NCBI RefSeq assembly: GCF_026616195.1
Contig: NZ_JANHDH010000003.1
Location: 620,001-684,000, forward strand
Length of the DNA stretch: 64,000 nucleotides
Source: Haloarchaeobius amylolyticus
Lineage (GTDB): Archaea > Halobacteriota > Halobacteria > Halobacteriales > Natrialbaceae
Direction of reading: 5' to 3'
Below are positions 35,480 to 53,905 of the stretch, one piece after another. Each line of letters begins with the position of its first letter. The stretch's first letter is position 1. The notes under the pieces were generated by a model. That model saw only the letters and a list, made by a program, of their open reading frames with translations, made no database searches and was not told where the DNA came from. A program made the translations under genes and the position numbers.

Positions 35480-35512
35480 ATCGATTCCTCAGAGCAACAG
35501 AAGAACCGCAGG

Positions 35513-35551
35513 GTAATCAACTATCAAATTACTGTGACGTACGGTCGTTCC
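35513..35551 (-). promoter_or_regulatory. Promoter of family-A copy 9
   Basis: Plus-strand GTAATCAACTATCAAATTACTG has a one-mismatch box GTTCC at 35547-35551 at the conserved 12-base distance. It is 34 bp from the start codon. Confidence 0.62.
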
Positions 35552-35676
35552 GCCCCCGGAGGTACGTCGCCGAAGGTGGCTTACCTGGCGGTAGACGACG
35601 TCTCGTCGTCGGGTCGGAGTGTCCTGAAAAAACGGCCGAAGGATGCCAGAGTGTCGGAAGGGGTTGCTCGTGGGGT

Positions 35677-36432
35677 CTAGATGCGGCGGGCCTCGAACTC
35701 GTCGTCGCTGCCGTTGCCCCATTCCCACTCCATCAGGACGTCCTCGCCCGCGTACTCGAGCTCCGTGGTGTCGAAGTCGATGGCGATGCGGCCGTCGGCG
35801 TACTCGAAGTCGAGACCGTTGTCGGTCTCCAGTTCGAGCTTGATGGCGCCCTTGATCTCGAGTTCCTGGCTGTCCTCGTCGTACTCGAAGTCGAGGTAGC
35901 GGCCGCGGTACTCGATGTCGCGGCGGTCGTCCTCGAACTGGTAGCCGCCACCGTCGGACTCGAACTCGACGTCGCCGTACTCGTACTCGAAGGAGATGTA
36001 CTCGTTGCGGAACGCGATGTCCAGCTCGAGGTTGCCTCCGTTGTCGTTCATCTCGAGGTCGACGTAGACCTCGCTGTCCTCGACTGTCAGCTCGAGGTGG
36101 TCGCTGTAGACGTCGGTCTCGAAGTCGACGCCGACGTCGTCGAGGTCGACGTCACCGTCGTCGGTCTCGAACGAGAGGTACGCCCAGTCGAACTCGATGT
36201 TCCCGTAGTCGTCGCGCTCGTAGTCGAGGATGTCACCGACGCCGGCCGGGCCGAGGATCGGCTCGGGAGCGGCTTCGGTTCCGGGCTTGGCCGCGGGTGC
36301 GACCTCCGTGGTCTCCTTCACACTGGACTGGAGTGTCCCGTCGGCGGCGAGTTTGCCGCCAACGCCCAGGGAGAGAGCCGCGAGAGATGCACCGGCGTAC
36401 TTCAGATATTGTCGCTTGGAAAGGTCTGCCAT
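35677..36432 (-). CDS. Acidic beta-repeat protein (family A, copy 10)
   Basis: 251 residues, last copy on the right and nearly the same length and layout as copy 5. The signal is LSKRQYLKYAGASLAALSLG and the domain starts ILDYERDDYGNIEFDWAYLS. Its strands and the EDDRRDIEYRGRYLDFEYDE block are shared with copies 5 and 7. It ends GNGSDDEFEARRI. Beyond it the array stops and a winged-helix gene follows. Confidence 0.8.
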   Translation of the reverse strand: MADLSKRQYLKYAGASLAALSLGVGGKLAADGTLQSSVKETTEVAPAAKPGTEAAPEPILGPAGVGDILDYERDDYGNIEFDWAYLSFETDDGDVDLDDVGVDFETDVYSDHLELTVEDSEVYVDLEMNDNGGNLELDIAFRNEYISFEYEYGDVEFESDGGGYQFEDDRRDIEYRGRYLDFEYDEDSQELEIKGAIKLELETDNGLDFEYADGRIAIDFDTTELEYAGEDVLMEWEWGNGSDDEFEARRI

Positions 36433-37727: not shown

Positions 37728-38636
37728 ATGTCAGGATACGAACTGTTGCTGTCCGGGGCCGTACCGCGGTCGACGGAACTGGGAGGCGTCGCGCTCCCCA
37801 CGAGCGGTGACCTCGGCGGCCTCGTGCTCGTCGGCTCGTTCGACCCGGTTCTCATGCATCCCTTCCACACGCTGGCGCTGCTGCTGGCGGTGAGCCGAAT
37901 CTTCGTCCTCATGAAGGCACGGAACCTCTACGCGACCGAGGAGCTGGTCATCGGCTTCTTCCCGTGGGTCGCCGTCGCGGCGGCGCTCTCGGTCTTCGGG
38001 CAGGTCGTCGTGCTGCCCGAGCAGGTCATCCCGTTCCTGTCGTCGCCGCTGGTCTACCTGACCGCGTTCGCCATCGGCGGGCACCTCTGGCTCCACCTGG
38101 CCGCGCCCGACCGACGCTCGTCCCGGGAGGCGGCCGAATCGGTCGCCCTCAGCGGCATCCTCTTCCTGGCGCCCATCGCGGGCGCGACCATCGCCCTGAG
38201 CGGGCGGGAGGTCCACCCGCTCTGGTCGCTCGTGGCCGTCCTGGTCGCCGTGTCGCTGTCCATCCTCATCTGGGCGTACGTCGACCAGTTCCACCCCGGC
38301 GTCACCGGGAACGCCGGCCTCCTCGGGTTCGCGGTCCTGCTCGGCCACCTGCTCGACGCGAGCACGACGCTCATCGGCATCGATATCTTCGGGCTCGCCG
38401 AGCAGACGCCGCTCTCGCGGGACATCATGGAGTTCGCGGCGACCCTGCCGACGGCCGACCTGCTCGGCATGGCGTGGCTGTTCGTGGTCGTGAAGGTCCT
38501 CATCGCGCTCGGCATCGTCTACGTCTTCAGCCACGCCATCACGGACGCCAGACACCGCAGCATCGTCCTCGGTATCGCGGCCACGACCGGGTTCGGCCCG
38601 GCCCTGCACAACCTGTTCCTGTACACGATTCTCTGA
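37728..38636 (+). CDS. DUF63-like multi-pass membrane protein
   Basis: 302 residues from ATG 37728. It has about seven helices and a conserved motif region LLGHLLDASTTLIGIDIFG followed by a loop and a terminal helix with FGPALHNLFLYTIL, as in archaeal DUF63. It is shorter than the DUF63-like protein at 20064-21191. Function unknown. Single gene, bounded by non-coding DNA on both sides. Confidence 0.75.
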   Translation: MSGYELLLSGAVPRSTELGGVALPTSGDLGGLVLVGSFDPVLMHPFHTLALLLAVSRIFVLMKARNLYATEELVIGFFPWVAVAAALSVFGQVVVLPEQVIPFLSSPLVYLTAFAIGGHLWLHLAAPDRRSSREAAESVALSGILFLAPIAGATIALSGREVHPLWSLVAVLVAVSLSILIWAYVDQFHPGVTGNAGLLGFAVLLGHLLDASTTLIGIDIFGLAEQTPLSRDIMEFAATLPTADLLGMAWLFVVVKVLIALGIVYVFSHAITDARHRSIVLGIAATTGFGPALHNLFLYTIL

Positions 38637-39213: not shown

Positions 39214-40173
39214 CTACTGCGTGAAGCTACTGTACTCGGGGGTGGCGTTCAGGAGTTCCTTGTACCGCGTCCGGATGGTCACGGTGCTCATGTTCGCCAC
39301 CTCGGAGACGTCGCGCTGGGTGATGTCCTCCGCGGTCACCACGGACGCGGCGTAGACCGCCGCGGCCGCGAGGGTCACGGGGCTCTTGCCGCTGTCGATG
39401 CCCTTCTGCTGGGCGTTCTCGAGCAGCTGGTACGCGATGCGCTCGCCCTCCGAGGAGAGGCCGAGCGAGGAGGCGTACCGGCGGACGTAGTCCTTCGGGT
39501 CGGCCAGCTGGACGACGAGGTTCAGCTCGCGGACGAGCGTGCGATACGCCCGCCGGAAGTCGCTGTCCTGGATGCGGCTGACCTCGATGACCTCGTCGAT
39601 GGTCCGCGGGATGCCCACCTGTCTGGCGGCGATGTAGAGCGACGCCGTCGCGATGGACTCGATGCTGCGCCCCGGGAGGAGGTCCTCCTTCAGGGCGCGC
39701 CGATAGATGACCGAGGCGGTCTCGCGCACGTCGGTCGGGAGCCCGAGTGCGCTGGCCATGCGGTCGATCTCGCCGAGTGCCTGGCGCAGGTTGCGCTTCT
39801 TGGAGTTCTCCATGGTGAAGCGCTGGTTCCACACGCGGAGCCGCTCCATCTGGCGGCGCTGGTTGTGGCTCAGCGGGGCGCCGCTGCTGTCTGCGTTCTT
39901 CCAGTCGATGGTGGTCGACAACCCCTTGTCGTGCCAGAGGACCGAGACGGGCGCGCCGACGCGGCTCCGCTGGTCCGCCTCGTCCGAGGAGAACGCCTGC
40001 CACTCCGGGCCGCGGTCGATCTCGTCCTCGGCGACGACCAGTCCACAGTCCATACAGACCGTCTCACCGTGTGTCTCGTCGTTGCGAACGCTGCCACCGC
40101 ACTCCGGACACTGGAGCGGTGCGTTCTCCCGACCCGACGGGACGTCGCTTCCGATGCTGTCCTTTCGTGTCAT
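39214..40173 (-). CDS. tfb: Transcription initiation factor IIB (TFB)
   Basis: 319 residues from ATG 40173. An N-terminal zinc ribbon (C22, C25, C40, C43: CPECGG and CMDCGL) is followed by the B-finger/linker (EWQAFSSDEADQRSRVGAP). Two cyclin repeats follow (IDRMASALGLPTDVRETASV and KDYVRRYASSLGLSSEGERI), each with a helix-turn-helix-like end such as DITQRDVSEVANMSTVTIRT. It recruits RNA polymerase to TATA/BRE promoters. Haloarchaea encode many TFBs with different promoter preferences. This one lies between the two surface-protein arrays, so it is a candidate for their shared promoters (inference). Confidence 0.96.
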   Translation of the reverse strand: MTRKDSIGSDVPSGRENAPLQCPECGGSVRNDETHGETVCMDCGLVVAEDEIDRGPEWQAFSSDEADQRSRVGAPVSVLWHDKGLSTTIDWKNADSSGAPLSHNQRRQMERLRVWNQRFTMENSKKRNLRQALGEIDRMASALGLPTDVRETASVIYRRALKEDLLPGRSIESIATASLYIAARQVGIPRTIDEVIEVSRIQDSDFRRAYRTLVRELNLVVQLADPKDYVRRYASSLGLSSEGERIAYQLLENAQQKGIDSGKSPVTLAAAAVYAASVVTAEDITQRDVSEVANMSTVTIRTRYKELLNATPEYSSFTQ

Positions 40174-40585
40174 AGTATATCTGCCTTGAATCGGGATGGT
40201 CGACACTCCGGACCGGAGCATCTCCCCCCTCGCGCGGTGGCGCGTTCGCGTCCCCGGCCGACCACACCCGTCGCTGCTGCGATGTCGAGTGGCGACCGGG
40301 CGGACGTCTGAACGGCCTCTCCGCCCTTGCGACCATTTGGCTACAGAGCGTCTTAACGTTCTTCTAACGTGTCGGAAGGTACCCGACCTCGAGTTCGTCA
40401 CGTGGAGGAAGCGGGATAACGCCGGTTCGCCGGGATGTCCCCGGTTCGTGGTGATATGTTTCACCCGGGTAAGGGAGACGGAGGTGCCTCGCTAACACTG
40501 TTGTAAGCTAGCAGTTATCATGGTCTGCACCGTAGTATGTGTAACGCGCGAAGCGACACGCGCTCGGCGTTACACAGGGGGGACC
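40174..40585. other. Divergent promoter region of TFB and small DUF7331-like gene
   Basis: No gene seen. TTAACGTTCTTCTAACG around 40352-40370 may be the TFB core promoter. AAGCTAGCAGTTATC near 40505-40520 and GTTACAC near 40569 lie ahead of the small gene. Confidence 0.4.
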
Positions 40586-40948: not shown

Positions 40949-41578
40949 TCAGCGTTCGTCACGCGTGCAGCGACAGCCACCGCGCTCCAGGAGCGTCGAG
41001 AACTCGGCCGACTGGCCACAGCTGGTACACAGGACGGTGATGTCGACCAGTATCTCGAAGTCGGAGACGGAGACGTGGCCCGCGTCGTCCAGTCGCTCGA
41101 GGTTCGAGTTCGCGACCGCGTTCGTGCGACTCCGGAGGCGCTGGATGGCCTGGCTCGCCGTCTCCACCGGGTCGGACGCCGTCGTCTCGTGGGAGGCCCC
41201 GCGGTGGTTCTTGAGGTACCGGTAGATGGCCTGGTGGGAGACGAAGTCTCCCGTCACGTCGTCGATGTCGACGCCGTCCTTCTCGAGGCTACGCACCGCC
41301 TGCATCCGGGTGCTCTCGCTCGCGTCGTCGTCCGTCAGTAGCTCGTACTTGGCCTCGAGTTCGCGCTCGGAGAGGTAGACGCCCGCCGCCTCGAGGGCGG
41401 CTCGCAACACGGCGAGGTTGAACAGCGCCGCCAGCTCGCGGAGGCTGTACTGGTCGTCACCGTCTGCCGTCCAGCGGCGTTCGAGGTCGTCCCCGAGTCC
41501 CCCGAGGTCGTACGTCTCGATGACGCGACGGACCTTGCTCCTGGCCGTGGTGCTCGACGAGGTGGTCGGGGAAGTCAC
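40949..41578 (-). CDS. RdfA-like protein (rod-determining factor family)
   Basis: 209 residues from GTG 41578, leaderless with GGTTTTAATCC about 25 bp upstream. KVRRVIETYDLGGLGDDLER, YSLRELAALFNLAVLRAALE, LLTDDDASESTRMQAVRSLE and DFVSHQAIYRYLKNHRG resemble haloarchaeal RdfA-like proteins, which influence rod shape in Haloferax. A C-terminal CTSCG...CRC pair could bind zinc. Function by family resemblance only. Confidence 0.6.
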   Translation of the reverse strand: MTSPTTSSSTTARSKVRRVIETYDLGGLGDDLERRWTADGDDQYSLRELAALFNLAVLRAALEAAGVYLSERELEAKYELLTDDDASESTRMQAVRSLEKDGVDIDDVTGDFVSHQAIYRYLKNHRGASHETTASDPVETASQAIQRLRSRTNAVANSNLERLDDAGHVSVSDFEILVDITVLCTSCGQSAEFSTLLERGGCRCTRDER

Positions 41579-41653: not shown

Positions 41654-42391
41654 TCAGATGTCGAATTCGACGACCGTCCCGGCACCGATACCCAGTTCGT
41701 CAGCGTAGCCCTGGTTCACCGCGATGACGTACTTCACCGGCGCGTCGCTCTCGTAGCGTGCCAGTTCGTCGTCGCTCGCGCCCGGTTGCGGGTCGGCCTG
41801 TGCGACGTTGACGACCGTGTTGTCGGCCCCGACGAAGATGAGGTCGAGCGGGATGGTCGTGTCCTTCATCCACATGGAGACGTAGTACTCCTGGTCGAAG
41901 ACGAAGGCCATGCCGGCCTCGTCGGGCAGGGAGCTCCGGCCGCTCAGGCCGGCCTCCTGTTCTGCGGCCGTGTCGGCGACCTCGAGGGTCGCGCTGCCGA
42001 CGGTGAAGCCGTCGACGACGAAGATGGCGGTCCCGTCGTTGGTGAACTCGCTGTCACCGCCAGCGTCAGGGGTGGTGGTGGGCGGGCTCGTGGTCGGGGG
42101 CTCGGTGGTCGGCGGGGCCGTCGTCGGCGGCGCGGTGGTGCCGTCACCGTCGCCAGCAGGCGGTGTCACGTCCGGTCCGAAGTCGTCGTCCGGGCTGGTC
42201 GGGGACTCGTTCCCCTCGTCACCGATCGGAGGCAGGACGATATCGCCCGAGTCGTTCACGCCCGGGTCCGTCACCGGGTCGGTCGTGTCGCCGGGGTTCA
42301 CGGCCGCCTGGCCGCCGCCCTGGAGCACGACGGCCGCGACCAGTACGACGACGATGGCGACGAGTATCAGGGACTCGCTTCGCACGTTCAT
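41654..42391 (-). CDS. DUF192 domain protein, membrane-anchored
   Basis: 245 residues from ATG 42391. An N-terminal membrane anchor (SLILVAIVVVLVAAVVLQ) is followed by about 100 residues of Pro/Thr/Asp-rich linker (TAPPTTAPPTTEPPTTSPPT, likely O-glycosylated). The DUF192 domain has AEQEAGLSGRSSLPDEAGMA, MWMKDTTIPLDLIFV and VKYVIAVNQGYADELGI. The domain is probably outside the cell. Biochemical role of DUF192 is unknown. An upstream in-frame start at 42412 is less likely. Confidence 0.88.
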   Translation of the reverse strand: MNVRSESLILVAIVVVLVAAVVLQGGGQAAVNPGDTTDPVTDPGVNDSGDIVLPPIGDEGNESPTSPDDDFGPDVTPPAGDGDGTTAPPTTAPPTTEPPTTSPPTTTPDAGGDSEFTNDGTAIFVVDGFTVGSATLEVADTAAEQEAGLSGRSSLPDEAGMAFVFDQEYYVSMWMKDTTIPLDLIFVGADNTVVNVAQADPQPGASDDELARYESDAPVKYVIAVNQGYADELGIGAGTVVEFDI

Positions 42392-42576
42392 GCAAGTACA
42401 GAGACGCAGCAAGGGGAAAAGTTCTCTATAACTGGGAGGTCACGGAGTCACGTCGGAAACACGAGTGACCCGACGGCGTGGAGAATGGCAGGTCATGTCA
42501 CAGCGACTACGGCCGTCGGGCGGGTCAGGTCGGACCACGCGTCTACGCGTGTGGTGTCGGCCAGGTACCGGTGTGG

Positions 42577-43131
42577 TCAGTACCAGTAGCGGCGGCCGTA
42601 GTAGCCGTCGTTGCTGTCGACCTTGATGAAGCCGCCGTCCGCGTAGCGGATGTCCAGTTCGCCGTTGTACTCGTCCACGTCGAAGTTGACGACCGGGCAG
42701 CGCGCGTTGTCGATGAGGCGCACGTCGAAGTCGTTGTAGTCGCAGTCGATGTAGACGGTCGGGCTCTGGAACTCGAAGCCGCCCCAGTCGTAGGCTCTGT
42801 AGTACGCCGAGCCGTAGGGCCCGACGAACTCCACCTCGGTGTCGCCGGCCAGCCACGCGTCGTACGAGTCGAAGTCGAACGTCGTCCCGGTGCCACAGTA
42901 GTCGTGGACGGTCAGCTGGAAGTCACCGAACCGGCCGAACCGGCGGCGACGGAAGTACGGTCGATAGACGTTGCTGCGCGCGAAGCTACTGCCGAGGTCG
43001 GCAGAGGTGTCCCCCACGTCCCCGATCTTCGCAGCGGCCGGGGCCGCAAGGGCCGCGGTACTGACGAGCCCGGTGCCGAGGGCCTTGAGTAGCGTGCGTC
43101 GCGAGGTTCCTGAGTTGGTAGTGCTGTCCAT
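42577..43131 (-). CDS. Tat-exported aromatic/acidic protein (family B, copy 1)
   Basis: 184 residues. The Tat signal TSRRTLLKALGTGLVSTAAL ends in APAAAK. The mature part begins Arg/Phe-rich (YRPYFRRRRFGRFGDF), then holds acidic strands (TEVEFVG, VYIDCDYNDFDVRLIDNARC) and ends DSNDGYYGRRYWY. Its three Cys and low Gly content make it the most folded-looking member. It resembles family A in its strand pattern and family B in its Tyr/Trp end. Confidence 0.78.
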   Translation of the reverse strand: MDSTTNSGTSRRTLLKALGTGLVSTAALAAPAAAKIGDVGDTSADLGSSFARSNVYRPYFRRRRFGRFGDFQLTVHDYCGTGTTFDFDSYDAWLAGDTEVEFVGPYGSAYYRAYDWGGFEFQSPTVYIDCDYNDFDVRLIDNARCPVVNFDVDEYNGELDIRYADGGFIKVDSNDGYYGRRYWY

Positions 43132-43667
43132 TGGGTGATTTCCTCCTTCTCACTAACCCATAGGTGGGCTCTACAGATAACACGTCTACTATCCAACCAG
43201 TGACGATACTACGACGAAGTTGACCGATGGTATGGAAGTTCAGCAGTGACGAAAGGTCGATACATCGGGCACGGGAGAGGCCGAACCGTCGGTTCGGGAG
43301 CGAGGGTGACCGACCAGCCGGCGACTCACGCTCCGGGAATGGCCGTGCCTGCGACCGGTGCGGTGCGCAGGGCGGGCCTCGAGGGCGCATCGAGAGTCAG
43401 GCCGGGGCCTCTCGGGGCGGCGCCCGTGTCGTCTGTCAGGGAAAAGCGCCCGGCTCTGGCTCGTGGCTGCGAGTCTGGTAATGACCAGTTCGGCGCGCCA
43501 GACCCGCACCTGGACAGCTCGGTGGGAACTGCGTGGTCGCTGGACGGGACACGTGAGAAACAGTCGACAGAATCGGGACACCGCGAAAAAGTGACGACCG
43601 GCTATGGTTCAGCCAGTGGGTCGGAGAGTACTATCGACCGGGTCGCCCCGGTCGCCCCCGGCACAGC
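43132..43667. other. Intergenic region upstream of family-B copy 1
   Basis: Near the gene, plus-strand GTGAC-N6-ACGACGAAGTTG (43200-43222) is the weakest copy of the family-B promoter box. The remaining about 440 bp contain only low-quality frames and appear to be untranslated DNA downstream of family-B copy 2. Confidence 0.5.
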
Positions 43668-44255
43668 TCAGTAGCAGGCGCCGAAGTCGGCCTCGAGGTC
43701 GTCGCCTTCGACCTCGAACTTGATGACGTCACAGCGCCCGAAGGTTTCGAACTCCATGTCGCCGTAGGCGTAGTCGTACTCGAAGTCGATCTCGGCGCTC
43801 TCGAACTCCACGTCGCCCGTGTAGTCGTCGCGCTCGTACTCGAAGCCGCCGGCGAGGATGTCACCGCGAGCCTCGACCTCGCCGTGGTCGAACTCGAACT
43901 TGCCGCCGTAGTACGGGCCGTAGCCGCCGTAGCCGCTCCCGTAGTACGGGGCGGGTGCGCCGTGGGTCGCCGCCTCGATGCTCTGGCTGCCGGCCGGCCC
44001 GGCGCCCGAGCTGAAGCTCCGGCTGGGGCCACCGCGACGGTAGCTCCGGCTGCGGCTGTAGCCACGGTAGCTGTTGCTGCGCCTGTAGCCACGGGTATCG
44101 TAGCTGCGGCGGTTCCGCCGGAAGTACGGGCTCCGGGAGCCGGTGTTGTCGGACGCGGCGACCGCCTGGGAACCCACCCCGATGGTGAGCAGGCCCGTGC
44201 CGATGGTCTTGAGCAGGGTCCGTCGCGTGCTTTGGGTCGAGGAATGTTGTTTCAT
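43668..44255 (-). CDS. Tat-exported Tyr/Arg/Ser-rich protein with acidic strands (family B, copy 2)
   Basis: 195 residues. The Tat signal is STRRTLLKTIGTGLLTIGVG with an AVAAS cleavage site. Residues about 45-125 are Arg/Ser/Tyr/Gly-rich (RGYRRSNSYRGYSRSRSYRR, YYGSGYGGYGPYYGG). The C-terminal third switches to family-A-like strands: FEYERDDYTGDVEFESAEID and EYDYAYGDMEFETFG. It ends with a Cys pair (RCDVIKFEV, FGACY). This hybrid directly joins the two families. Confidence 0.78.
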   Translation of the reverse strand: MKQHSSTQSTRRTLLKTIGTGLLTIGVGSQAVAASDNTGSRSPYFRRNRRSYDTRGYRRSNSYRGYSRSRSYRRGGPSRSFSSGAGPAGSQSIEAATHGAPAPYYGSGYGGYGPYYGGKFEFDHGEVEARGDILAGGFEYERDDYTGDVEFESAEIDFEYDYAYGDMEFETFGRCDVIKFEVEGDDLEADFGACY

Positions 44256-44591
44256 GGTGGTAGTTCCCTCTCAGCCACTATCTAGGGAGTGTCCGGGAAT
44301 ATAATGTTAGCTAATAAACTGGTTACGCGGATACCACGAAGTTGTGTGGCGAGATTGACTTACCAGTCCGGGAAGAGATTACGGGAGCGCCGTAACTGGG
44401 GCGCCACGAGTCCGGAGTCACGGGCGTTCCGGGACCGGGGTAGATCGCAGGACGGGGACACGGCAGTCCGTCGGCGGAATCGACAGAGTTGACTCTCGAC
44501 AGGTCGGCTGTCGGTCGAAAACGGTCGGCTGGCGGTTCTGGGTGCGCACGGGCCGGCCCGCGTCGAGTGCGGGTCGGGCCCGGGGACCCGG
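44256..44591. promoter_or_regulatory. Promoter of family-B copy 2 and downstream region of copy 3
   Basis: Plus-strand TATAAT and GCTAATAAACTGGTTAC are followed by GCGGAT and ACCACGAAGTTG (44322-44344), with TTACCAG at 44370. From about 44390 to 44591 nothing recognisable is seen. Confidence 0.6.
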
Positions 44592-45047
44592 TCAGTACCA
44601 GTACCAGTAGTACGGGCGGTAGTACGGCCCGTAGTAGGGGTCGTAGTAGTACGGGCGGTAGTAGTACGGCCGGTAGTACGGGTAGTAGAACCGGAACTCG
44701 AAGTCGTCGTCATCGTCGTCGTACCGGCGACGACCCCGGCGTCCGCGGCGACCACGCCGCCTGCGCCAGCCATCGTCGTCGTCCCGGCGGCCTCTGCGAC
44801 CACGTCTCCCCCGCCCGTCATCGCCGTCGCCGCGCCGACGACCCCGACGGCCATCGCCACCGCGCCGACCCTCGTCACGCTGGTACTGGCCGCCCTCGGT
44901 CGGTCCGGCCTGTCCCACCGCGGGGGTGCCTGCGCGACCACCGTCCGCGGCGGAGGCGACTCCACTGCCGAGGCCCACGGTCACCAGCCCGAGGCCGACG
45001 GTCTTCAGCAATCGTCGTCGATACACGCGTCTATGGTTGCTGGTCAT
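44592..45047 (-). CDS. Tat-exported Arg/Asp/Tyr-rich low-complexity protein (family B, copy 3)
   Basis: 151 residues from ATG 45047, so that YRRRLLKTVGLGLVTVGLG is the signal; the upstream in-frame start would cross the promoter. The mature chain has a central arginine/aspartate region (GRRGRRGRRDDDDGWRRRRG) and an acidic run (DDDDDDFEFRF). Its tail is almost only Pro and aromatic residues in PYY steps (YYRPYYYRPYYYDPYYGPYY), ending YWYWY. The extreme charge blocks followed by the aromatic tail suggest self-association or adhesion. Confidence 0.75.
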   Translation of the reverse strand: MTSNHRRVYRRRLLKTVGLGLVTVGLGSGVASAADGGRAGTPAVGQAGPTEGGQYQRDEGRRGGDGRRGRRRGDGDDGRGRRGRRGRRDDDDGWRRRRGRRGRRGRRRYDDDDDDFEFRFYYPYYRPYYYRPYYYDPYYGPYYRPYYWYWY

Positions 45048-45106
45048 GCTTTCTCCCCTCGGTCGAGGGTAGGCTACATCGAAAAATAACGCCACGGTAA
45101 TACCTG

Positions 45107-45157
45107 GGTTACCGGACTACCACCGAGTTGCACGACGACACGGAGTTACCAGTCGGG
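45107..45157 (-). promoter_or_regulatory. Promoter box of family-B copy 3
   Basis: Plus-strand GGTAA-N8-TTACC overlaps GTTAC-CGGACT-ACCACCGAGTTG, followed by GCACGACGACACGG and TTACCAG. Confidence 0.68.
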
Positions 45158-45214
45158 AACGTCATCACGCCGACCCGTCCCCGTGTCGCCTCCGGCGACC
45201 TCGACCAGCGACGC

Positions 45215-45655
45215 TCAGTCGAAGTCGACCCTGACGTACCCGTCGGGACCGTAGTAGACGTACTCGTCGTCGTCCACGAAGAACGGGCCGTAGTAACCGC
45301 CGTAGTACGGGCCGTAGCCGTAGCCGCCGTAGTAGCCGGAGTAGTACGGGTCGCCGTAGATGCGGATCTCCACGTCGTCGCCGTAGTAGCCGCGCCGGCC
45401 GTACCAGCGCCGACCGTACCCACGCCGGTGGTACCGGCGGAAGCGCCGCCGACCGTATCGGCGCCGCCCGCGACGGTACCGGCGACCGTGATACGCCTCC
45501 ATCGGCGACTCGCCGGCCTGGACGGTCTCGCTGCTCGGGTCCGGTCGTCCGGCTGCGGCGGCGACGCCGCTTCCGACGCCGAGCGTGAGCAGGCCCACGC
45601 CGGCCGCCTTGAGAACAGTTCGTCGGGACGTTCCGTCGGTGAAATTTCGTTTCAT
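45215..45655 (-). CDS. Tat-exported Tyr/Gly/Arg-rich protein (family B, copy 4)
   Basis: 146 residues. The signal is TSRRTVLKAAGVGLLTLGVG with GVAAAA. The mature part starts with a short polar segment (VQAGESPMEAYHGRRYRRGR). A run of Arg/Tyr/Gly units follows (RRYGRRRFRRYHRRGYGRRW), then a Tyr/Gly/Pro stretch (YSGYYGGYGYGPYYGGYYGP). It ends with two short acidic strands FFVDDDEYVYYGPDGYVRVD F. No Cys. Confidence 0.78.
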   Translation of the reverse strand: MKRNFTDGTSRRTVLKAAGVGLLTLGVGSGVAAAAGRPDPSSETVQAGESPMEAYHGRRYRRGRRRYGRRRFRRYHRRGYGRRWYGRRGYYGDDVEIRIYGDPYYSGYYGGYGYGPYYGGYYGPFFVDDDEYVYYGPDGYVRVDFD

Positions 45656-45716
45656 GGATGAAACCCTCTCCCGTAGAAGCTATGCCGGGCTCGAATATAT
45701 CTCTGAAGTGATGATT

Positions 45717-45770
45717 GGGTTACCGGGACACCACGAAGTTGCCCGGGGACACGTAATCTCCTGCTGAAAC
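45717..45770 (-). promoter_or_regulatory. Promoter box of family-B copy 4
   Basis: Plus-strand GTTAC-CGGGAC-ACCACGAAGTTG, with AATATAT (about 45694-45700) as the probable TATA box toward the gene. Confidence 0.68.
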
Positions 45771-45876
45771 GTCTGCGTGGTAACGGCGAAGCGGTCGCTC
45801 ACGGTGTGAGAAAACGGATGGAAGAAACGACGACTGGACAGCTCCAGTCGCTACCTGACAGGCCTACGCGACGGCG

Positions 45877-46395
45877 TCAGTAGAGGAACCGGCGGCGGTA
45901 GAGGCCGCGGTTGTAGATGCCACGACCGTAGAAGCCCCGGCGGTACAGGCCACCGGCGCACGGGTCGGCACACGGGTCGATGTCCGCACACGGGTCGACG
46001 GCGCACGGGTCGACGTCGGCACACGGGTCGACGTCAGCACACGGGTCGGCGCACGGATCGATGTCCGCACACGGGTCGACGGCACACGGGTCGACTCCAC
46101 AGGGGTCGACGCCGTAGTAGCCGAAGCGACCGCGGTAGCCGTACGGGCGGTAGCCGGTGCGGAACCGGATGCGGCTGCCGTGGTAGCGGCGGCCGTAGAA
46201 CCCGCGGCGACCGTAGAAGCCACGGCGGTAGCGCAGGCGGCGCCCGTACAGTCCTTCCTTCCCGGTCCCGGTGATGTTCGCGGACCCCTCCTTCGCGGAG
46301 ACGGCCTGCGAGCCGACACCGACCGCGACCAGCCCGACGCCGACGGTCTTCAGAAGCTTTCGTCGATACATCCCTCGAGAGTTATCTTGAGTCAT
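45877..46395 (-). CDS. Tat-exported Cys-repeat protein (family B, copy 5)
   Basis: 172 residues. The signal is YRRKLLKTVGVGLVAVGVGS ending AVSAK. After a Tyr/Arg/Gly segment (RRYHGSRIRFRTGYRPYGYR) there is a run of about ten DPC units (DPCGVDPCAVDPCADIDPCA, then DPCADVDPCADVDPC and so on) at about 95-145. The chain then returns to RRGFYGRGIYNRGLYRRRF. The regularly spaced Cys and Asp could bind metal or form intermolecular disulfides. The DNA encoding this run is a near-perfect short-period repeat and prone to length change. Confidence 0.78.
   Translation of the reverse strand: MTQDNSRGMYRRKLLKTVGVGLVAVGVGSQAVSAKEGSANITGTGKEGLYGRRLRYRRGFYGRRGFYGRRYHGSRIRFRTGYRPYGYRGRFGYYGVDPCGVDPCAVDPCADIDPCADPCADVDPCADVDPCAVDPCADIDPCADPCAGGLYRRGFYGRGIYNRGLYRRRFLY
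45950..46110 (-). repeat. Coding short-period repeat for DPCA units
   Basis: CACACGGGTCG recurs with 12-21 bp periods through this stretch of the gene at 45877-46395, in register with the reading frame. Confidence 0.8.
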
Positions 46396-46722
46396 TTGGA
46401 GTTCAACCCCCGTGCTTCGATATGAGTTAATAAAATATAGCCTCGCGGTAATAATTCTGTTACTTCAGTACTACGAAGTTGCACAACGTGACGGAACTAC
46501 CAGTGCGAACGACCACCGCGGAATCACGTTTCGGTGGGGAAATCACCCCGCGGCGATTACGAGCGAGCGATCACCACGGCCGGCAACCACGGTGCGAAGG
46601 CAGCGTCAGCGAGGAGACGCCGTGCCGGCGCGGAGACGACGGCCGGAGAGACCGTCCGGTCACCAGTCGGGATAGCTCGAAAACGCGGGACGGACCAGGG
46701 TCGATTCCCCGACCCGGCCGGC
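46396..46722. promoter_or_regulatory. Promoter of family-B copy 5 and intergenic DNA
   Basis: Plus-strand AATAAAATATAG (46430-46441) is the TATA region. GGTAA-N8-TTACT with GTTAC-TTCAGT-ACTACGAAGTTG spans 46447-46481, and CTACCAG ends at 46503. The rest (to 46722) shows no gene. Confidence 0.62.
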
Positions 46723-47097
46723 TCAGTAGTAGTAGTCGACCTCGATGGAGCCGTCCTTGTCGCGCTCGTAGCTGAAGTACGACGGGCCGTAGCCGTAGCC
46801 ACCGTAGTACGGGCCGTAGCCGTACCTGCGACCGTAGAACCGGCGGCCGTAGTACCCGCGGCCGTAGTACCCACGGTAGCCGTACCTGCGACCGTAGAAC
46901 CGGCGGCCGTAGTACCCGCGGCCATAATACCCGCGGTGATACGGCTGGGCACCGGTGGCTGCGCCGGTGCCGACGCTGGCCGAGGTGCCCTGGTTCGCGG
47001 AGACGGCTCCGGTGCCGACGCCGAGGGCCAGCAGGCCGACACCGACGGTCTTCAGCAACTTGCGACGATACATACTCCCGATTCCGTTGTGAGTCAT
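46723..47097 (-). CDS. Tat-exported Tyr/Gly/Arg-rich protein with YERD tail (family B, copy 6)
   Basis: 124 residues from ATG 47097 (MTHN, as in copies 7 and 8). The signal is YRRKLLKTVGVGLLALGVGT with AVSAN. The mature chain is built of YGRGYYGRRFYGRRYGYRG units and includes a 20-residue exact tandem duplication. It ends FSYERDKDGSIEVDYYY, whose YERD-DG-IE pattern is the opening motif of the family-A domain. Confidence 0.78.
   Translation of the reverse strand: MTHNGIGSMYRRKLLKTVGVGLLALGVGTGAVSANQGTSASVGTGAATGAQPYHRGYYGRGYYGRRFYGRRYGYRGYYGRGYYGRRFYGRRYGYGPYYGGYGYGPSYFSYERDKDGSIEVDYYY
46816..46935 (-). repeat. 60-bp tandem duplication inside family-B copy 6
   Basis: The sequence from 46816 repeats at 46876 with an exact 60-bp period. 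The two units differ at only a few bases, near their ends. Confidence 0.85.
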
Positions 47098-47148
47098 GAT
47101 TTGCAACCCCTCGGCCGGTATCTACGAGTTATTACGGAATAATCTCGA

Positions 47149-47212
47149 GGTAATAATCCCGTTACCGGGGCACCACGAAGTTACACGACGACACGTACTT
47201 TCCAGCGGAAAC
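47149..47212 (-). promoter_or_regulatory. Promoter box of family-B copy 6
   Basis: Plus-strand GGTAA-TAATCCCG-TTACC, then ACCACGAAGTTA, ACGACGACACG and TTTCCAG. This is the cleanest palindrome of the set. Confidence 0.7.
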
Positions 47213-47343
47213 GAGCGTCCGGCAAGCAGGTTCCCCCGTCGATATCACCCGCGGGTGACCGAGGCTCGACGAGCTGGCCGCGAAAAAACAGGTGGCGATC
47301 GGGTGGTCTCCCACCCCGTTGGTCGTTCGATTACGCCGACCCG

Positions 47344-47736
47344 TCAGTAGGTGCGGAACCGGATGCCGCGCCCGCGGAACCGGACGTACGGGCCGTAGCC
47401 GTAGCCGCGGTAGAAGCCGCGACCGTAGAACCGGCTGCCGTAGTAGCCACGGCCGTAGAACCGGCCGCGGTACCCGCCGCTACGCCAGAACGCGTAGCCC
47501 GCGCACGGGTCACAGTGCGGGTCGTACAGGCCACCGGTGCGCCAGTACTCGCCCCACGGGCCGCCCCAGTAGGCGCCGAACTGCTCCTCGGTGGGCTTCT
47601 GTCCCGGGGCGACCGCCGGCGACTGTCCCTGTTTGGCGGAGACGGTCTGGCTGCCGACCGCGACGGCGGCGAGGCCGACGCCGACGGTCTTCAGCAGTTT
47701 GCGGCGATACACTCCTCGAGGTTCGGTATGAGTCAT
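47344..47736 (-). CDS. Tat-exported Tyr/Gly/Arg-rich protein (family B, copy 7)
   Basis: 130 residues. The signal is YRRKLLKTVGVGLAAVAVGS, TVSAK. The mature chain has a less repetitive start (FGAYWGGPWGEYWRTGGLYD), a Cys pair CDPC, then RGRFYGRGYYGSRFYGRGFY and an end of alternating Arg/aromatic residues (YVRFRGRGIRFRTY). The CDPC motif links it to the DPC run of copy 5. Confidence 0.78.
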   Translation of the reverse strand: MTHTEPRGVYRRKLLKTVGVGLAAVAVGSQTVSAKQGQSPAVAPGQKPTEEQFGAYWGGPWGEYWRTGGLYDPHCDPCAGYAFWRSGGYRGRFYGRGYYGSRFYGRGFYRGYGYGPYVRFRGRGIRFRTY

Positions 47737-47783
47737 GGTTTCAACCCCCTCGGTGGAGGTAGGCGTGTGAGCCGCATAATTTC

Positions 47784-47842
47784 GCGGTAGTGACGACGTT
47801 ACGGCCGTACTACGGAGTTGTTCGACGAAACGTAATCACCAT
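47784..47842 (-). promoter_or_regulatory. Promoter box of family-B copy 7
   Basis: Plus-strand GTTAC-GGCCGT-ACTACGGAGTTG, preceded by GGTAG at palindrome distance. A GCATAAT box (47773-47779) lies toward the gene. Confidence 0.64.
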
Positions 47843-48001
47843 CCGATACGAGCGCCGGGAAACGAGGTTTCGCTGCGGAAAGCGGTGCGCAGGACGGCTG
47901 TCGGGGCGAACGCGTGCCGCAGCTACCGGACGGTCTCGGTCGGTAGTTCGCAAAGAAGCGCGCCGGCGCTGGTGGCCGGCGGGTGGTCGACGACGGGTCG
48001 G

Positions 48002-48337
48002 TCAGTACCAGTACCGGAAGCGGAACCCGTCGCCGCGGAACCGGATGTACGGGCCGTAGCCGTAGCCGCGGTAGTAGCCACGGTAGTACGGGCGGTAGTA
48101 GCCGCGATAGTAGCCACGGTAGTACGGACGGTAGTAGCCGCGGTAGAAGCGGCGCCGGTAGTACCCGCCGTAGTGGTACGGTTGCTCGCCCTCGGGCTGC
48201 TGGCCGGCGGCGACGCTGGGCTCGACACCTTCCTTCGCGGAGACGGCCTGGCTGCCGACCGCGACGGCGGCGAGGCCGACACCGACGGTCTTCAGGACTT
48301 TGCGACGATACACTCCTCGAGAGACGTTGTGAGTCAT
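48002..48337 (-). CDS. Tat-exported Tyr/Arg-rich protein (family B, copy 8)
   Basis: 111 residues from ATG 48337; the longer frame to 48427 spans the promoter. The signal is YRRKVLKTVGVGLAAVAVGS with AVSAK. The mature chain is RRRFYRGYYRPYYRGYYRGY repeats, then YGPYIRFRGDGFRFRYWY. It is the smallest member, with no Cys and almost no acidic residues. Its signal is almost the same as that of copy 7. Confidence 0.78.
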   Translation of the reverse strand: MTHNVSRGVYRRKVLKTVGVGLAAVAVGSQAVSAKEGVEPSVAAGQQPEGEQPYHYGGYYRRRFYRGYYRPYYRGYYRGYYRPYYRGYYRGYGYGPYIRFRGDGFRFRYWY

Positions 48338-48696
48338 GTTTTCCAACCCCCTCGGGAAGGCATAGGAGACATCCGAATATAGCGACGAGGTAGTAACGTC
48401 GTTACGCCCGTACCACGACGTTTTCAACCGAAACGAAAGTACCAGTCGAACTGAGCGGACGGTAGTATCGTTTCCTCGGTCTCTCAGGACGTCGAGACTC
48501 CCACGGATCGACCGTCTGTGCGCGGGAACACCCGGATTCGACGGTTCCCGCCCCGGTCGTGACAGTCTCGGGGAGAGTCCCGAACCCGGCGTGCTGAGGT
48601 GTCGAGGGACCCGAACGACCGGTCTGGCGCCCGACGGCTCTCACCAGTCTCGTGGAACATTATACTTCCCGCGTACACCCCTACTCTCCCGTGACC
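48338..48696. promoter_or_regulatory. Divergent region: family-B copy 8 promoter and HdeD promoter
   Basis: Plus-strand GGTAG-N8-TTACG overlaps GTTAC-GCCCGT-ACCACGACGTTT (48401-48423), followed by GTACCAG. ATTATACTT at 48660-48668 is the TATA box of the HdeD-like gene. The sequence between (48450-48655) shows no gene. Confidence 0.6.
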
Positions 48697-49329
48697 ATGA
48701 GTCCAGAAACCGGTGATATCGGCGAGAGTAGTATCGAAGAGCGCATCGACGAGCCGACGATGGCCACGCTCGAGGGTGACTGGCGGCCGCTGTTCCTCGC
48801 GGGTATCGCGCTCGCCATCGGTGGCATTCTCGCGATCGCGTTCCCCTTCGTCACGAGCATCTCACTGTCGCTCCTCTTCGGGGCCGTGCTGGTCATCGGC
48901 GGGCTGGTGAACGTGGCACACAGCATCTCGCAGATGAAGTGGACCGGGTTCGTCAGCCAGGCGTTGCTCGGGGTCCTCTACACGGTGGCGGGTATCTTCC
49001 TCATGGCGAACCCGCTGCTTGGGCTCGCCTCGCTGACGCTCCTGCTGGTGGGGTTCTTCCTGTTGAACGGGATCGTCGAGATATTCCTCGGCTTCAAGCT
49101 CCGCGAGGAGCCGAACTGGGGCTGGGTGGTCGCCAGCGGCGTCGTCTCGCTGGTGCTCGCCTCGCTCGTCCTGGCGAACTTCCCGAGCAGCGCGCTGTGG
49201 GCCATCGGTCTGCTCTTCGGCGTGAACCTGCTCTCGACCGGCATCTCGTTCGCGCTGTTCGCCGTCGGCGCGCGGGACGCGGCCGAGAAGGAGACGACCC
49301 CGCCGGTGTCGAAACCGGGCCAGGCCTGA
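48697..49329 (+). CDS. HdeD-like membrane protein
   Basis: 210 residues from ATG 48697. About six hydrophobic helices in three similar pairs (RPLFLAGIALAIGGILAIAF, LLFGAVLVIGGLVNVAHSIS, LGVLYTVAGIFLMANPLLGL) and the short charged loop FLGFKLREEPNWGW fit the DUF308/HdeD family, linked to acid resistance in enterobacteria; the archaeal role is unknown. Convergent with the LonB gene. Confidence 0.85.
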   Translation: MSPETGDIGESSIEERIDEPTMATLEGDWRPLFLAGIALAIGGILAIAFPFVTSISLSLLFGAVLVIGGLVNVAHSISQMKWTGFVSQALLGVLYTVAGIFLMANPLLGLASLTLLLVGFFLLNGIVEIFLGFKLREEPNWGWVVASGVVSLVLASLVLANFPSSALWAIGLLFGVNLLSTGISFALFAVGARDAAEKETTPPVSKPGQA

Positions 49330-49389: not shown

Positions 49390-51417
49390 TCACTGCGTGC
49401 CCGAGTCGTGTTCGCTCTCGACGCGGGCCTCGCCCGCGCCCGAGCCGAAGGTGAACTCGCCGAAGGTCTCGCTGGCGGCCTTCGAGAGCTTCTCCAGCAT
49501 GGAGTGCTTGACCGTCTCGGTGACCAGCGCGGCGTCCAGCACCTCGCCGATGTGCCGGACGGGGATTATCTCGATCTGCTCCAGCACCTCGGGGTCGACG
49601 AGCACGTCGCGCTCGTTCGCGGCCGGGATGATGACCGTCTTGCTCCCGGCCTTCACCGCCGCCTCGACCTTGTGGGTGACCCCGCCGACGGGGAGCACGT
49701 CGCCCCGGACCGACAGCGAGCCGGTCATCGCGACGCTCTGGTCGACCGGCACGTCGGTCAGCGCCGACAGGATGGCGGTCGCGACCGTCACGGAGGCCGA
49801 ATCGCCCTCGACGCCGTCGTACGCCTGCACGAACTGGACGTGGATGTCCTTGTTGTCGAGGCTCTGGTCGGAGTACTTCTTCACGACCGCGGAGACGTTG
49901 TGGACGGACTCCGTCGCTATCTCCTGGAGTTTGCCGGTCGCGATGACCTGGCCGGGCCCCTGCGAGGGAGCGATCTCGGCCATGACGGGCATCACGATGC
50001 CGGAGTCCTCGCCCATGACCGCGAGGCCGTTGACCCGCCCGACGACCGCGCCCTCGTTGACCGTGAGGTCGTACTCGCGGCGGCGCTCGATGTAGTCGTC
50101 GGCGATCTGCTGCTCGATGGAGCGCGCCCGGCGCTTTGCCTGCAGGACGTGCTGGCGCGTGGTATAGGGTGCGTCCTCGTCGCGGGCGATGTCACCGGCG
50201 ACGCGGACGAGCCCGCCGAGGTCGCGGAACCGCAGCGTCAGGTGGTCCTGGCGGCCGGCGCGGCGCTGGGCCTCGCGGACGACCTCCGCGATGGCACCCC
50301 GGGTGAAGTGGGGCAGGCGGCCGTCGTTGGCGACCTCCTGGGCCACGAACCGGACGTACTTCTGGCGGATCTCCGGCGTCTCCTCGATGGTGTCGTCCAT
50401 GTACACCTCGTACCCGTAGCCCTTGATGCGGCTCCGGAGCGCGGGGTGCATGTTCTCCATCGCGTCGAGGTTGCCCGCGGCGATCATGATGAACTCACAC
50501 GGCACCGGCGCGGTGTGGACCATCGCGCCCGAGGACGTGTCGGACTGGGCCGTGATGGAGTACTCGCGCTCTTGCAGCGCGGTCAGCAGTTTCTGCTGGG
50601 TGCGGATCTCGAGCGTGTTGATCTCGTCGATGAACAGCACGCCCTTGTTCGCCTTGTGGATGGCGCCGGGTTCGACGCGGTCGTGACTCGGCGTCTCCAT
50701 CCCACCGGACTGGTACGGGTCGTGGCGCACGTCGCCCAGCAGCGCGCCGGCGTGGGCGCCGCTCGCGTCCTGGAACGGCGCACTCGTCCGGTCGCTGTTG
50801 TCGATGAGGATCTTCGGAACCATCCGGTTGCGGTTGCGCGCGCTGCTGCGGAAGATGTAGTAGACGACCGCGATGGCGAGGATGCCGAGCAACAGCTGCC
50901 CGACGATGATGGTGTAGATGAAGACGAGGATTATCGTCGTCCACATCGCGAACCAGCGGAGCTGGAGGCCCTTGCGGGCGCGCTGGCGGTGTTCCTGTAC
51001 CACCATCTCGCCGCCGCCGGCGGGCACGACCTCGACCTTCGGGCGGTTCCCGTCGTCCTCGTTGTGCATGACGAGCACGTCCGGGAGGTCGCTACTGGGT
51101 AGCAGTTCGGCCATCGCCTTCGACAGCATCGACTTGCCGGTCCCGGGCGAGCCGATCATCATGACGTGGCGGCGCTGTGTCGCCGCCTTCTCGATGATGT
51201 CCCGCGCGCGGTCCTGCCCGATGACCTGGTCGATGAGCAGTCGCGGGACCTCCACGTCGGCGGTGCTCTCGATGTCCAGCCCGCCGAGGAGCTGGGCCGT
51301 CTCCTCGTCGGAGTCGTCCATCGGCGACTCGGGCGGCAGGAACGGCCCGTACTCCCCAGCGTCGCTAGAGGACTCGGTGCTAGCAGTCAACTCAGAGGTG
51401 TCCTTCTCGGTTTCCAT
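49390..51417 (-). CDS. lonB: Archaeal LonB membrane protease
   Basis: 675 residues, ATP-dependent protease anchored to the inner face of the membrane. Walker A GSPGTGKS is at 89-96. Two membrane helices (about 148-190) are inserted between the Walker motifs. Walker B is [12 protein letters not shown]. The C-terminal Ser-Lys dyad is S540 (GDSASVT) and K583 (THKVEAA). Full length for LonB, which is essential and controls lipid/carotenoid enzymes in Haloferax. Divergent from the surface-protein gene at 51557. Confidence 0.96.
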
Positions 51418-51556: not shown

Positions 51557-53425
51557 ATGAAGGGGGCTCCAGCAGTGCTACTCGCACTCCTCGTGTTGCT
51601 CTCGGGGACGGTCGTCTTCGTGTCGTTCGAAGACGCCCCCGTGAGCGCCGTACCAGACGACGACTATCCACCGGTCGTCGACGACCCGTCGCCCACCCCG
51701 GACGTGACACCGCCCGCGGGGGACGGCACCGACGGTGAGACCCCCGACGTGGAACCCCCGGAGCCGACCGCTCCCGACGTTCCAGCACCCGATTCCGACG
51801 GCCCCACCAGTCCCGACGCGGACGGCGGCAGCGATGCTGGCGACCCCGCAGTCGACCCGTCGCCCGGTGACGGCGGGGATGGCGACCCCGCGGTCGACCC
51901 CACGCCCGGTGACACCCCGGACACCGACGGCCCGTCGGACGGCTCCGACGCGCCCAGCAACGGCGGTGGGCCCGATGCGCCCAGCAACGACGGCGGCTCC
52001 GACGCCGGCCAGCAGGACGGTGACGCCGGCGGCGACCCCGACGTCACGCCCGGTGACGACGACGGGACGACCGACGGCGGCGTCCCGGTCGACGACGGCG
52101 GCGAGCCCCACCCCGTCGGCAGCGAGGACGACGGCATCATCGGCTACGAGGCCGGCTACTGGTACAACCAGACCGTCGTCATCGACCAGAGCGACGGCGT
52201 CTCCGACGCGGAACTCGACGCCCTCGTCGCCGTGACGATGGCGCGGGTCGAGTACATCCGCGGGCTGGAGTACCTCGAACCGGTCGACGTGAAGATCATC
52301 TCGCGGGCGGACTACCGTGCCCAGCTCGCCGAGGGCACCAACGAGACGCTGGACCACTCGCTGTGGAACAACCAGGTCTGGGAGGCGCTGTTCATCGTCG
52401 GTGAGGACGCGAACGTCTCCGACGAGTTCACCAAACTGTTCGGCTCGAACGTGCTCGGCTACTACGCCCCGAAGACCGACGAGATGGTCATCGTCTCGAC
52501 CGACGCGGACCAGCCGACGGTCGACCCGAACGTGCTCGTCCACGAGATGGTCCACGCGCTGCAGGACCAGCACTTCGACCTCACCGCGTCGCTGAAGGAC
52601 GTACAGGACGAGCAACTCGCCCGCAACGGCATCGTCGAGGGCGAGGCGAACTACATCACGGCGCTGTACAAGCAACACTGCGGGACGACGTGGACCTGCA
52701 CGCCCAGTCCGTCGAACACCGGCGCCGACACCAGCGGCGAGTCCCCGGCGACCGGCCTGCTCATCGCCATCTTCCAGCCGTACTCCGACGGCCCCGTCTG
52801 GATGGAGTACATGGTCGAGCGCAAGGGCTGGGAGGCCGTGACCACCTCGTTCGAGAACATGCCCACGACCACGGAGACGTTCATCCACCCGGAGAAGGAC
52901 GACGCCCCGACCATCGTCCGGGTCGATGACGCCACCACTGGTGGCTGGGCCCGCTTCGAGTCGGGCCAGGACGGCGCCGACGTGCTCGGCGAGGCGTCCA
53001 TCTACGCGATGTTCTACCACCTCGCGAAGGAGGAGAACTCCCGCGTCATCAGCGCCTACGACATCAACCGCGTCGAGTCCGAGTTCGACACCTACAACTA
53101 CGTCAGCACGCCCTCCGAGGGCTGGGCGGGCGACCGCATCGTCCCGTACCAGAAGGACGGCGAGTACGGCTACGTCTGGGTGACCGAGTGGGACAGCACC
53201 CGCGACGCCCAGGAGTTCTACGAGGCGTACACCGACGTCTTAGAGGAGTTCCGAGCCGACCGCGTCGGGCCCGACACCTGGGTCGTCGACCGCGGCCCGT
53301 TCGCCGACGCCTTCCACGTCACCCTCGACGGGACCCGCGTCACCATCGTCAACGCCCCGACCGTCGAGCAACTGTCCGAGATCCGCATGGACATCGACGT
53401 GACGCTGTACCAGCGCTGGCGCTGA
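51557..53425 (+). CDS. Hvo_1808-like surface protein with HExxH site
   Basis: 622 residues. A Sec-type signal (VLLALLVLLSGTVVFVS) is followed by about 165 residues of Pro/Asp/Gly/Thr-rich stalk. A folded domain then starts GYEAGYWYNQTVVIDQ. It contains a gluzincin-like site: LVHEMVHALQDQHFDL and, about 32 residues on, NGIVEGEANYITALY, whose Glu could be the third zinc ligand. An extracellular metallopeptidase is plausible but no activity is established for this family. Divergent from lonB. Confidence 0.87.
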   Translation: MKGAPAVLLALLVLLSGTVVFVSFEDAPVSAVPDDDYPPVVDDPSPTPDVTPPAGDGTDGETPDVEPPEPTAPDVPAPDSDGPTSPDADGGSDAGDPAVDPSPGDGGDGDPAVDPTPGDTPDTDGPSDGSDAPSNGGGPDAPSNDGGSDAGQQDGDAGGDPDVTPGDDDGTTDGGVPVDDGGEPHPVGSEDDGIIGYEAGYWYNQTVVIDQSDGVSDAELDALVAVTMARVEYIRGLEYLEPVDVKIISRADYRAQLAEGTNETLDHSLWNNQVWEALFIVGEDANVSDEFTKLFGSNVLGYYAPKTDEMVIVSTDADQPTVDPNVLVHEMVHALQDQHFDLTASLKDVQDEQLARNGIVEGEANYITALYKQHCGTTWTCTPSPSNTGADTSGESPATGLLIAIFQPYSDGPVWMEYMVERKGWEAVTTSFENMPTTTETFIHPEKDDAPTIVRVDDATTGGWARFESGQDGADVLGEASIYAMFYHLAKEENSRVISAYDINRVESEFDTYNYVSTPSEGWAGDRIVPYQKDGEYGYVWVTEWDSTRDAQEFYEAYTDVLEEFRADRVGPDTWVVDRGPFADAFHVTLDGTRVTIVNAPTVEQLSEIRMDIDVTLYQRWR

Positions 53426-53539: not shown

Positions 53540-53905
53540 ATGGTGACGATACCGCTGTTCATCGGAGGCATCGGCGGCCCCGAACTCATCGTCGTCTTCC
53601 TGCTCGTCATCCTCCTCTTCGGCGCGGACAAACTGCCGAAGTTGGCGCGTGCGAGCGGTGAGGCCATGGGTGAGTACCAGAAGGGGCGAGAGAAGCTCGA
53701 GGCAGAGATCACGGGCGTGAAAGAGGAGACCCGCCGCGCCGTCGTCGGCGACGAGATGGACGACGAGCCGCAGGCCGCATCCACGGCGACGGCCGAGGAG
53801 CCCGCCGGCGTGGTCGACGAGTCCACGGAACCGGCCGCCGAAGCGGTCGAGTCCGAGGACACCGAGTCCGAGCTGGAGACCGAGACCGACCGCGCGTCGG
53901 ACTGA
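53540..53905 (+). CDS. tatA: Twin-arginine translocase subunit TatA
   Basis: 121 residues: a short extracellular N-terminus, membrane helix GPELIVVFLLVILLFGADKL, the hinge KLPKLARASGEAMGEYQKG, amphipathic helix and an acidic disordered tail. This is the normal TatA/TatB-type layout. It forms the pore for folded proteins. About 20 predicted Tat or Tat-like substrates lie in this window, including the nearby family-B array. Confidence 0.92.
   Translation: MVTIPLFIGGIGGPELIVVFLLVILLFGADKLPKLARASGEAMGEYQKGREKLEAEITGVKEETRRAVVGDEMDDEPQAASTATAEEPAGVVDESTEPAAEAVESEDTESELETETDRASD

Follow-up and report, generated by a model that had tools for sequence, protein, structure and literature searches.

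In Bacillus subtilis, the twin-arginine translocation (Tat) components TatAd and TatCd are encoded with their substrate PhoD and form a dedicated Tat translocase. Here we describe a 64,000-nt window of Haloarchaeobius amylolyticus DNA (all positions are those of this whole window), in which a minus-strand array of eight genes for Tat-type proteins, g1 to g8 (42577-48337), belongs to an island where accessory Tat components likewise share a neighbourhood with signal-bearing substrates. The island differs from the Bacillus arrangement in that its substrates form large tandem arrays of novel proteins rather than a cofactor enzyme, and in that the host genus has only TatA locally, with TatC elsewhere. 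The envelope proteins of bacterial sulfur globules, SgpA/B/C, are also small exported structural proteins, and presumably resemble the basic chains of the array in composition. They differ in carrying Sec signals, in being extremely hydrophobic (PMC10386293) and in being tied to sulfur oxidation. FUS and the PR25 peptide share Arg- and aromatic-rich chains and condense at 2.7 M KCl (PMC7889641), but FUS is an intracellular protein of eukaryotes and PR25 a synthetic peptide, and the analogy is one of chemistry alone. Short exported proteins of Paraburkholderia and other Proteobacteria, rich in Tyr, Gly and Pro with GYY, PYY and RGYY motifs, look Sec-signalled, are neutral or His-rich, stand as single genes in the loci examined and have no acidic partner array; they resemble the array proteins in being short, exported and rich in such motifs, and no sequence homology between the two was seen. 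Such small proteins in Paraburkholderia and one Burkholderia end in PVYYAPPP and GYYRGYYGHGYYRR tails and are apparently uncharacterised (L048, L054, L055, L060, L065, L069, L070, L072, L073).

We propose that the genes form an accessory island for Tat secretion, with the array as its cationic half, and that the chains of the array build an extracellular coat or matrix, a reading to which we assign a probability of roughly 0.42. The array comprises the following genes:

42577..43131, minus strand: g1, Tat signal, short RY-rich stretch and an acidic, conserved module at the C-terminus, with YGRRYWY as its end; mature isoelectric point (pI) 4.3
43668..44255, minus strand: g2, Tat signal, middle rich in RG/RSY; the C-terminal half is acidic and has homology to the acidic array described below
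44592..45047, minus strand: g3, Tat signal, blocks of Arg/Asp/Gly and an aromatic PYY tail, with YWYWY at the end
45215..45655, minus strand: g4, Tat signal, RRRYGRR blocks, then YGGYGYGPYYGG
45877..46395, minus strand: g5, Tat signal, RGFYGRR plus 10 DPC units
46723..47097, minus strand: g6, Tat signal, GYYGR repeats, end YERDKDGSIEVDYYY (a motif resembling the acidic family)
47344..47736, minus strand: g7, Tat signal, GW/GY/RF-rich chain
48002..48337, minus strand: g8, Tat signal, RGYY/RPYY repeats, no fold in the AlphaFold2 model

A check of open reading frames found all eight genes where the first-pass annotation had placed them, and its assignment of Tat signals to them is borne out. The signals follow the consensus M-x(7-9)-[SY]RR-x-[LV]-L-K-[TA]-x-G-x-G-L and continue into a hydrophobic segment with an AxA-like cleavage site behind it; RR, L15, K16, G19, G21 and L22 are invariant in the array alignment, and the twin-arginine motif is of the SRRT/YRRK type throughout. 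Each of the eight thus combines a twin-arginine motif, a hydrophobic h-region and a signal peptidase I site, the last read from sequence. The NCBIfam Tat-signal model places g7 alone above its cut-off (17.8 vs 16.7) and matches the other seven weakly. Export of these proteins by Tat is strongly predicted, and is well supported because TatA occurs in the islands and TatC stands next to substrate genes in two other families. Passage of apparently disordered chains through Tat, which the first-pass annotation considered odd, is less so here, since haloarchaea secrete predominantly by Tat and, according to some studies, the pathway may accept intrinsically unfolded proteins (PMC2910488). Long unfolded regions do reduce Tat efficiency (PMC13186574); the mature chains, at about 80-165 residues, are as far as is known of a size that is tolerated.

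The basic array is the sole copy in the 4.6-Mb host genome. Among 100 relatives searched, one other genome of the same genus (G002) contains it, as 11 genes whose order and surroundings are conserved; the g1 ortholog there is 66% identical. One extra member there (L022:12540-13268), with long Arg/Asp blocks and a mature pI of 11.3, has no counterpart in the window. Nonsynonymous substitution rates (dN, 0.069-0.304) are below synonymous rates (dS, 0.367-1.292) in all eight ortholog pairs, for a dN/dS of about 0.14-0.53; codon position 3 is the most changed in every pair, and length changes come as whole codons. GC content at codon position 3 is 0.79-0.93 in the array genes, against 0.95 in the LonB gene and 0.90 in the TFB gene of the island. 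Because of dN < dS, the position-3 bias, the in-frame length changes and the high GC at that position, our comparisons indicate that the frames are translated and kept by selection. The candidate explanation that they are spurious, untranslated frames of a GC-rich repeat region, for which overlapping open frames on the opposite strand could be cited, is ruled out by these patterns together with start-linked upstream elements and presence in two species, and we give it a negligible chance.

Signals are better conserved than mature parts: those of g2 and its ortholog h2 are 100% identical, and the signal of the g5/h5 pair is 97% identical vs 72% for the mature part. Small cationic chains that change fast behind conserved signals could be secreted antimicrobials: an arsenal in the course of diversification that leaves the cell by Tat, as halocins do. 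Tandem copies that share one signal and differ in the mature part have the look of a bacteriocin or nematode NLP-type cluster, and an accessory replicon in few species would suit such a role. The mature parts are nevertheless under purifying selection in all pairs, no immunity gene was recognised among the neighbours scanned with Pfam and NCBIfam, and a conserved association with LonB, TFB and a large acidic family (below) is not typical of bacteriocins. Cationic peptides in general also bind poorly in 4 M salt, and we regard an antimicrobial role as unlikely.

The description of all eight mature chains as Tyr/Gly/Arg low-complexity sequence stands for g3-g8, which are basic (mature pI 9.0-10.0) with a Tyr, Gly and Arg content of about 40-64%; it does not stand for g1 and g2, which are acidic overall (mature pI 4.3-4.7) and have a conserved, non-repetitive C-terminal part. 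That the chains differ greatly from one another is supported, and of the 19 array proteins that the two species have between them, 15 end in Tyr. Searches of Pfam and NCBIfam with all eight, and of PHROGs with four of them and the acidic protein a9, returned no family apart from weak Tat-signal matches. We modelled one basic protein (g8) and one acidic protein (a9) with AlphaFold2. The g8 model, built with 10 homologous sequences, has a mean predicted local distance difference test (pLDDT) score of 48 and nothing structured beyond the signal helix. No PDB sequence match was obtained for g1 and the acidic family. Relatives of g8 were found neither among named plasmids nor in a scan of genome contigs with the array alignment, a set that may lack close records, and a DNA pattern for GYYRGYY, run against 85,000 species genomes, hit mainly bacteria, with no haloarchaeon among the matches listed and mostly unrelated or other-frame sequences.

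The reported DPC repeat is confirmed and lies in g5, at 10 copies; in G002 it occurs in two genes, one with 10 copies and one with 11. These regular units, which give 10-12 Cys per g5-type protein and are conserved in G002, and the Asp/Arg blocks of g3 and h9 could speak for metal or mineral handling, in which such segments and the acidic sheets would bind metals or template mineral, as shell-matrix proteins do. The Cys repeat is nonetheless confined to one or two members, and the window's island holds no metal transporter, while the Halomarina stretch has one P-type ATPase, making this role very unlikely.

The first-pass annotation missed a shared element upstream of the genes. In all 19 genes of both species, AAC-N3-G...GTNAC begins 81-90 bp ahead of the ATG, with a TATA-like stretch next. 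The 22-bp consensus AACNNCGTNGTN6GTNAC has 10 matches in the 4.6-Mb host genome, seven of them in the array, and eight in G002, seven again in its array; a reversed-pattern control gave zero matches. The copies in the window are:

43200..43221, minus strand: element of g1 (pattern search)
44322..44343, minus strand: element of g2 (pattern search)
45108..45129, minus strand: element of g3, a variant
45719..45740, minus strand: element of g4 (pattern search)
46459..46480, minus strand: element of g5 (pattern search)
47161..47182, minus strand: element of g6 (pattern search)
47798..47819, minus strand: element of g7 (pattern search)
48401..48422, minus strand: element of g8, AACnnCGTnGTn6GTnAC (pattern search)

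Since every gene has its own copy and the intergenic gaps are 167-536 bp, each looks like a separate transcription unit within one regulon.

Also overlooked at first was a second tandem array on the minus strand (27762-36432), about 6 kb from the basic array, which encodes nine acidic paralogs and has its own shared promoter region, different from the basic-array element. The features missed, which are this sister array, its link to g2, the island TatA and the upstream element, matter more than those first noted. The members of the sister array are:

27762..28541, minus strand: a1, acidic beta-repeat protein, KR-type Tat-like signal
28710..29411, minus strand: a2, acidic beta-repeat protein
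29565..30251, minus strand: a3, acidic beta-repeat protein, RR signal
30693..31448, minus strand: a4, acidic beta-repeat protein
31729..32508, minus strand: a5, acidic beta-repeat protein
32771..33550, minus strand: a6, acidic beta-repeat protein
33792..34598, minus strand: a7, acidic beta-repeat protein
34703..35479, minus strand: a8, acidic beta-repeat protein
35677..36432, minus strand: a9, acidic beta-repeat protein, modelled with AlphaFold2

Their mature pI is about 4.1, with a net charge of -28 to -60, and most end in EFEARRI. The signals read SKRQYLKYAGASLAALSLGVGG, with one exception, SRRAYL; the twin-arginine site is KR in eight of nine and RR in a3, KR being a tolerated variant of the Tat motif. 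The a9 model is all-beta and contains about 20 strands, with a mean pLDDT of 80 and high confidence past residue 60. Its best structural neighbours, the CPAP G-box and OspA single-layer sheets, reach Z scores up to 7.7 with partial cover, a middling result that may reflect a common arrangement and no more. To relate the two arrays, we scored proteins against a hidden Markov model (HMM) of the acidic family built without signals, and compared each score with the best of 50 shuffles. The model gave 22.3 bits for g2 (best shuffle 2.5) and 23.3 bits for its ortholog (2.0), and pairwise BLAST of g2 and a9 gave 2e-5; these scores firmly indicate that part of g2 belongs to the acidic family. A relationship of g1 (8.1 bits; best shuffle 2.8) and of g6 (7.0 bits; best shuffle -0.4, via its YERDKDGSIEVD tail) is suggestive, and the HMM gave no link for g3, g4, g5, g7 or g8. 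An Arg-rich protein of genome G398 scored 16.9 bits (best shuffle 5.8), and 4e-9 against the full acidic profile including the signal.

The acidic proteins share beta-strand repeats with DUF4097/Toastrack domains (PF13349), which raises an envelope-stress system as an alternative: the acidic proteins would be Toastrack-like sensors or shields, comparable to LiaX, which has this role for daptomycin and LL-37, while at the membrane the basic chains would act as ligands or co-factors of the acidic proteins. Weak Pfam matches occur in six of 25 acidic-family members (best 1.7e-5), the Prokaryotic Genome Annotation Pipeline (PGAP) names one Halomarina member DUF4097, and the BAT, TFB, LonB, DUF308 and MsrA genes of the island fit a stress regulon. 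However, a9 scores 12.8 bits, below the cut-off of 22.9, and known Toastrack domains are predicted to be intracellular (PMC11237479), whereas the acidic proteins carry export signals. A Toastrack structure is absent from the a9 neighbour list, an absence that excludes nothing. Overall, we find an envelope-stress system quite unlikely.

The remaining genes of the island in the window are:

24570..27605, minus strand: BAT-type PAS/GAF/HTH_10 regulator adjoining the acidic array
37728..38636, plus strand: DUF63 membrane protein
39214..40326, minus strand: TFB (archaeal TFIIB) paralog
40949..41578, minus strand: RdfA-family protein
41654..42412, minus strand: DUF192 protein with a Pro/Thr-rich linker
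48652..49329, plus strand: DUF308/HdeD-like membrane protein
49390..51417, minus strand: second LonB-type membrane protease
51557..53425, plus strand: Hvo_1808-family surface protein (HEMVH motif)
53540..53905, plus strand: TatA homologue

The order BAT regulator, acidic array, DUF63, TFB, RdfA, DUF192, basic array, DUF308, LonB, Hvo_1808, TatA is syntenic in G002, and four other genus members have one LonB each and neither array. A search with a single member found the acidic family in four of 392 genomes of the order; it was found in five of 391 genomes of the class by profile search. Two carriers, G398 and G369, belong to other haloarchaeal families, so that islands of this kind span three families. 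In G398 the order is LonB, one Arg-rich Tat protein, a double TatC, a single TatC, DUF192, TFB, DUF63, acidic array and BAT. A 94,505-bp contig of G369 matches, in length and coordinates, plasmid unnamed4 of Halomarina sp. BCD28 (NZ_CP100452.1), whose island encodes acidic proteins, double TatC, TatA, TFB, BAT, RdfA, Hvo_1808 and MsrA. Further acidic-family members lie on the large contig of G369 (C1:588001-606000), a stretch in which a search for Tat genes found none. Genome G365 has one distant acidic protein, with no Tat, TFB or LonB match within the 27 kb examined. TatA is present in all four islands; TatC stands beside the substrates in G398 and Halomarina, and in the host and G002 occurs only on contig C1. 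The arrays lie on contigs of 753 kb (host) and 675 kb (G002), and we infer that the island is on an accessory replicon. An Orc1/Cdc6 replication initiator at 3637-4842 in the window fits such a replicon. Near the island we also noted MsrA, a peptide methionine sulfoxide reductase (55795-56400; Pfam 4.5e-70), which recurs on the Halomarina plasmid island, and gas-vesicle-like genes at 57000-61500: one (59211-60179) contains a GvpA-type domain (Pfam 1.2e-12), and the products of two more (58042-58887 and 60740-61513) look like GvpF/L. A small BAT/HTH_10 protein is encoded nearby (56500-57159).

In the mechanism we propose for an extracellular coat or matrix, a common regulator would act on the upstream element and switch the basic array on, and the proteins would leave via Tat, be cut by signal peptidase and stay outside; we hold their retention there with moderate confidence. 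The Arg/Tyr-rich chains would then associate, by themselves or together with the acidic proteins, through aromatic, cation-pi and hydrophobic contacts, because multi-molar salt screens charge repulsion, and would be deposited as a coat or matrix. Acidic beta proteins would serve as soluble partner or scaffold, with g1 and g2 as possible bridges, and LonB and the Hvo_1808-type protein would provide quality control and remodelling. Condensation is the weakest step, held with weak to moderate confidence by analogy with Arg-rich PR25 and FUS, which condense alone in concentrated KCl via hydrophobic and non-ionic contacts (PMC7889641). The likeness to phase-separating proteins seen by the first-pass annotation is physically plausible in brine, as a resemblance of chemistry only. 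An adhesive or eggshell-like function, to which the same annotation saw a likeness, would be speculative.

Several points weigh against a coat or matrix. Expression, secretion and assembly are all deduced from sequence. The g8 model fits disorder, but low pLDDT alone is no proof of it. The island genes that were scanned gave no cross-linking enzyme (peroxidase, tyrosinase or sortase). The host and G002 islands lack TatC, and therefore a general Tat receptor must serve there; for the acidic proteins, use of Tat is less certain because their signals are mostly KR rather than RR. Finally, sequence search found the basic array in no more than two species of one genus, a restriction that may be overstated because such searches find low-complexity relatives poorly.

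A literature search returned nothing on such arrays or Tat islands, which is weak evidence of absence given its partial coverage. What appears to be new is the substrate families, the pairing of two arrays and the neighbourhood with LonB and TFB, whereas Tat parts encoded with a substrate are already known from Bacillus. A fuller version, in which disordered, Tat-exported Arg/Tyr-rich chains that condense in brine and acidic beta-sheet partners make up a two-component extracellular material, with one accessory-replicon locus encoding both material and exporter and having Tat, protease and transcription parts of its own, is conceivable but doubtful. If true, archaea would use a pathway regarded as favouring folded cargo to export arrays of condensate-type low-complexity chains, and a family of folded acidic proteins would be the partners of these chains. 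The island would then offer a natural test of the cargo range of Tat and of extracellular protein condensation at molar salt, and an example of an accessory replicon bearing a surface programme together with its exporter. Whatever the function, two uncharacterised protein families and a conserved Tat/LonB/TFB island in three haloarchaeal families are new leads.

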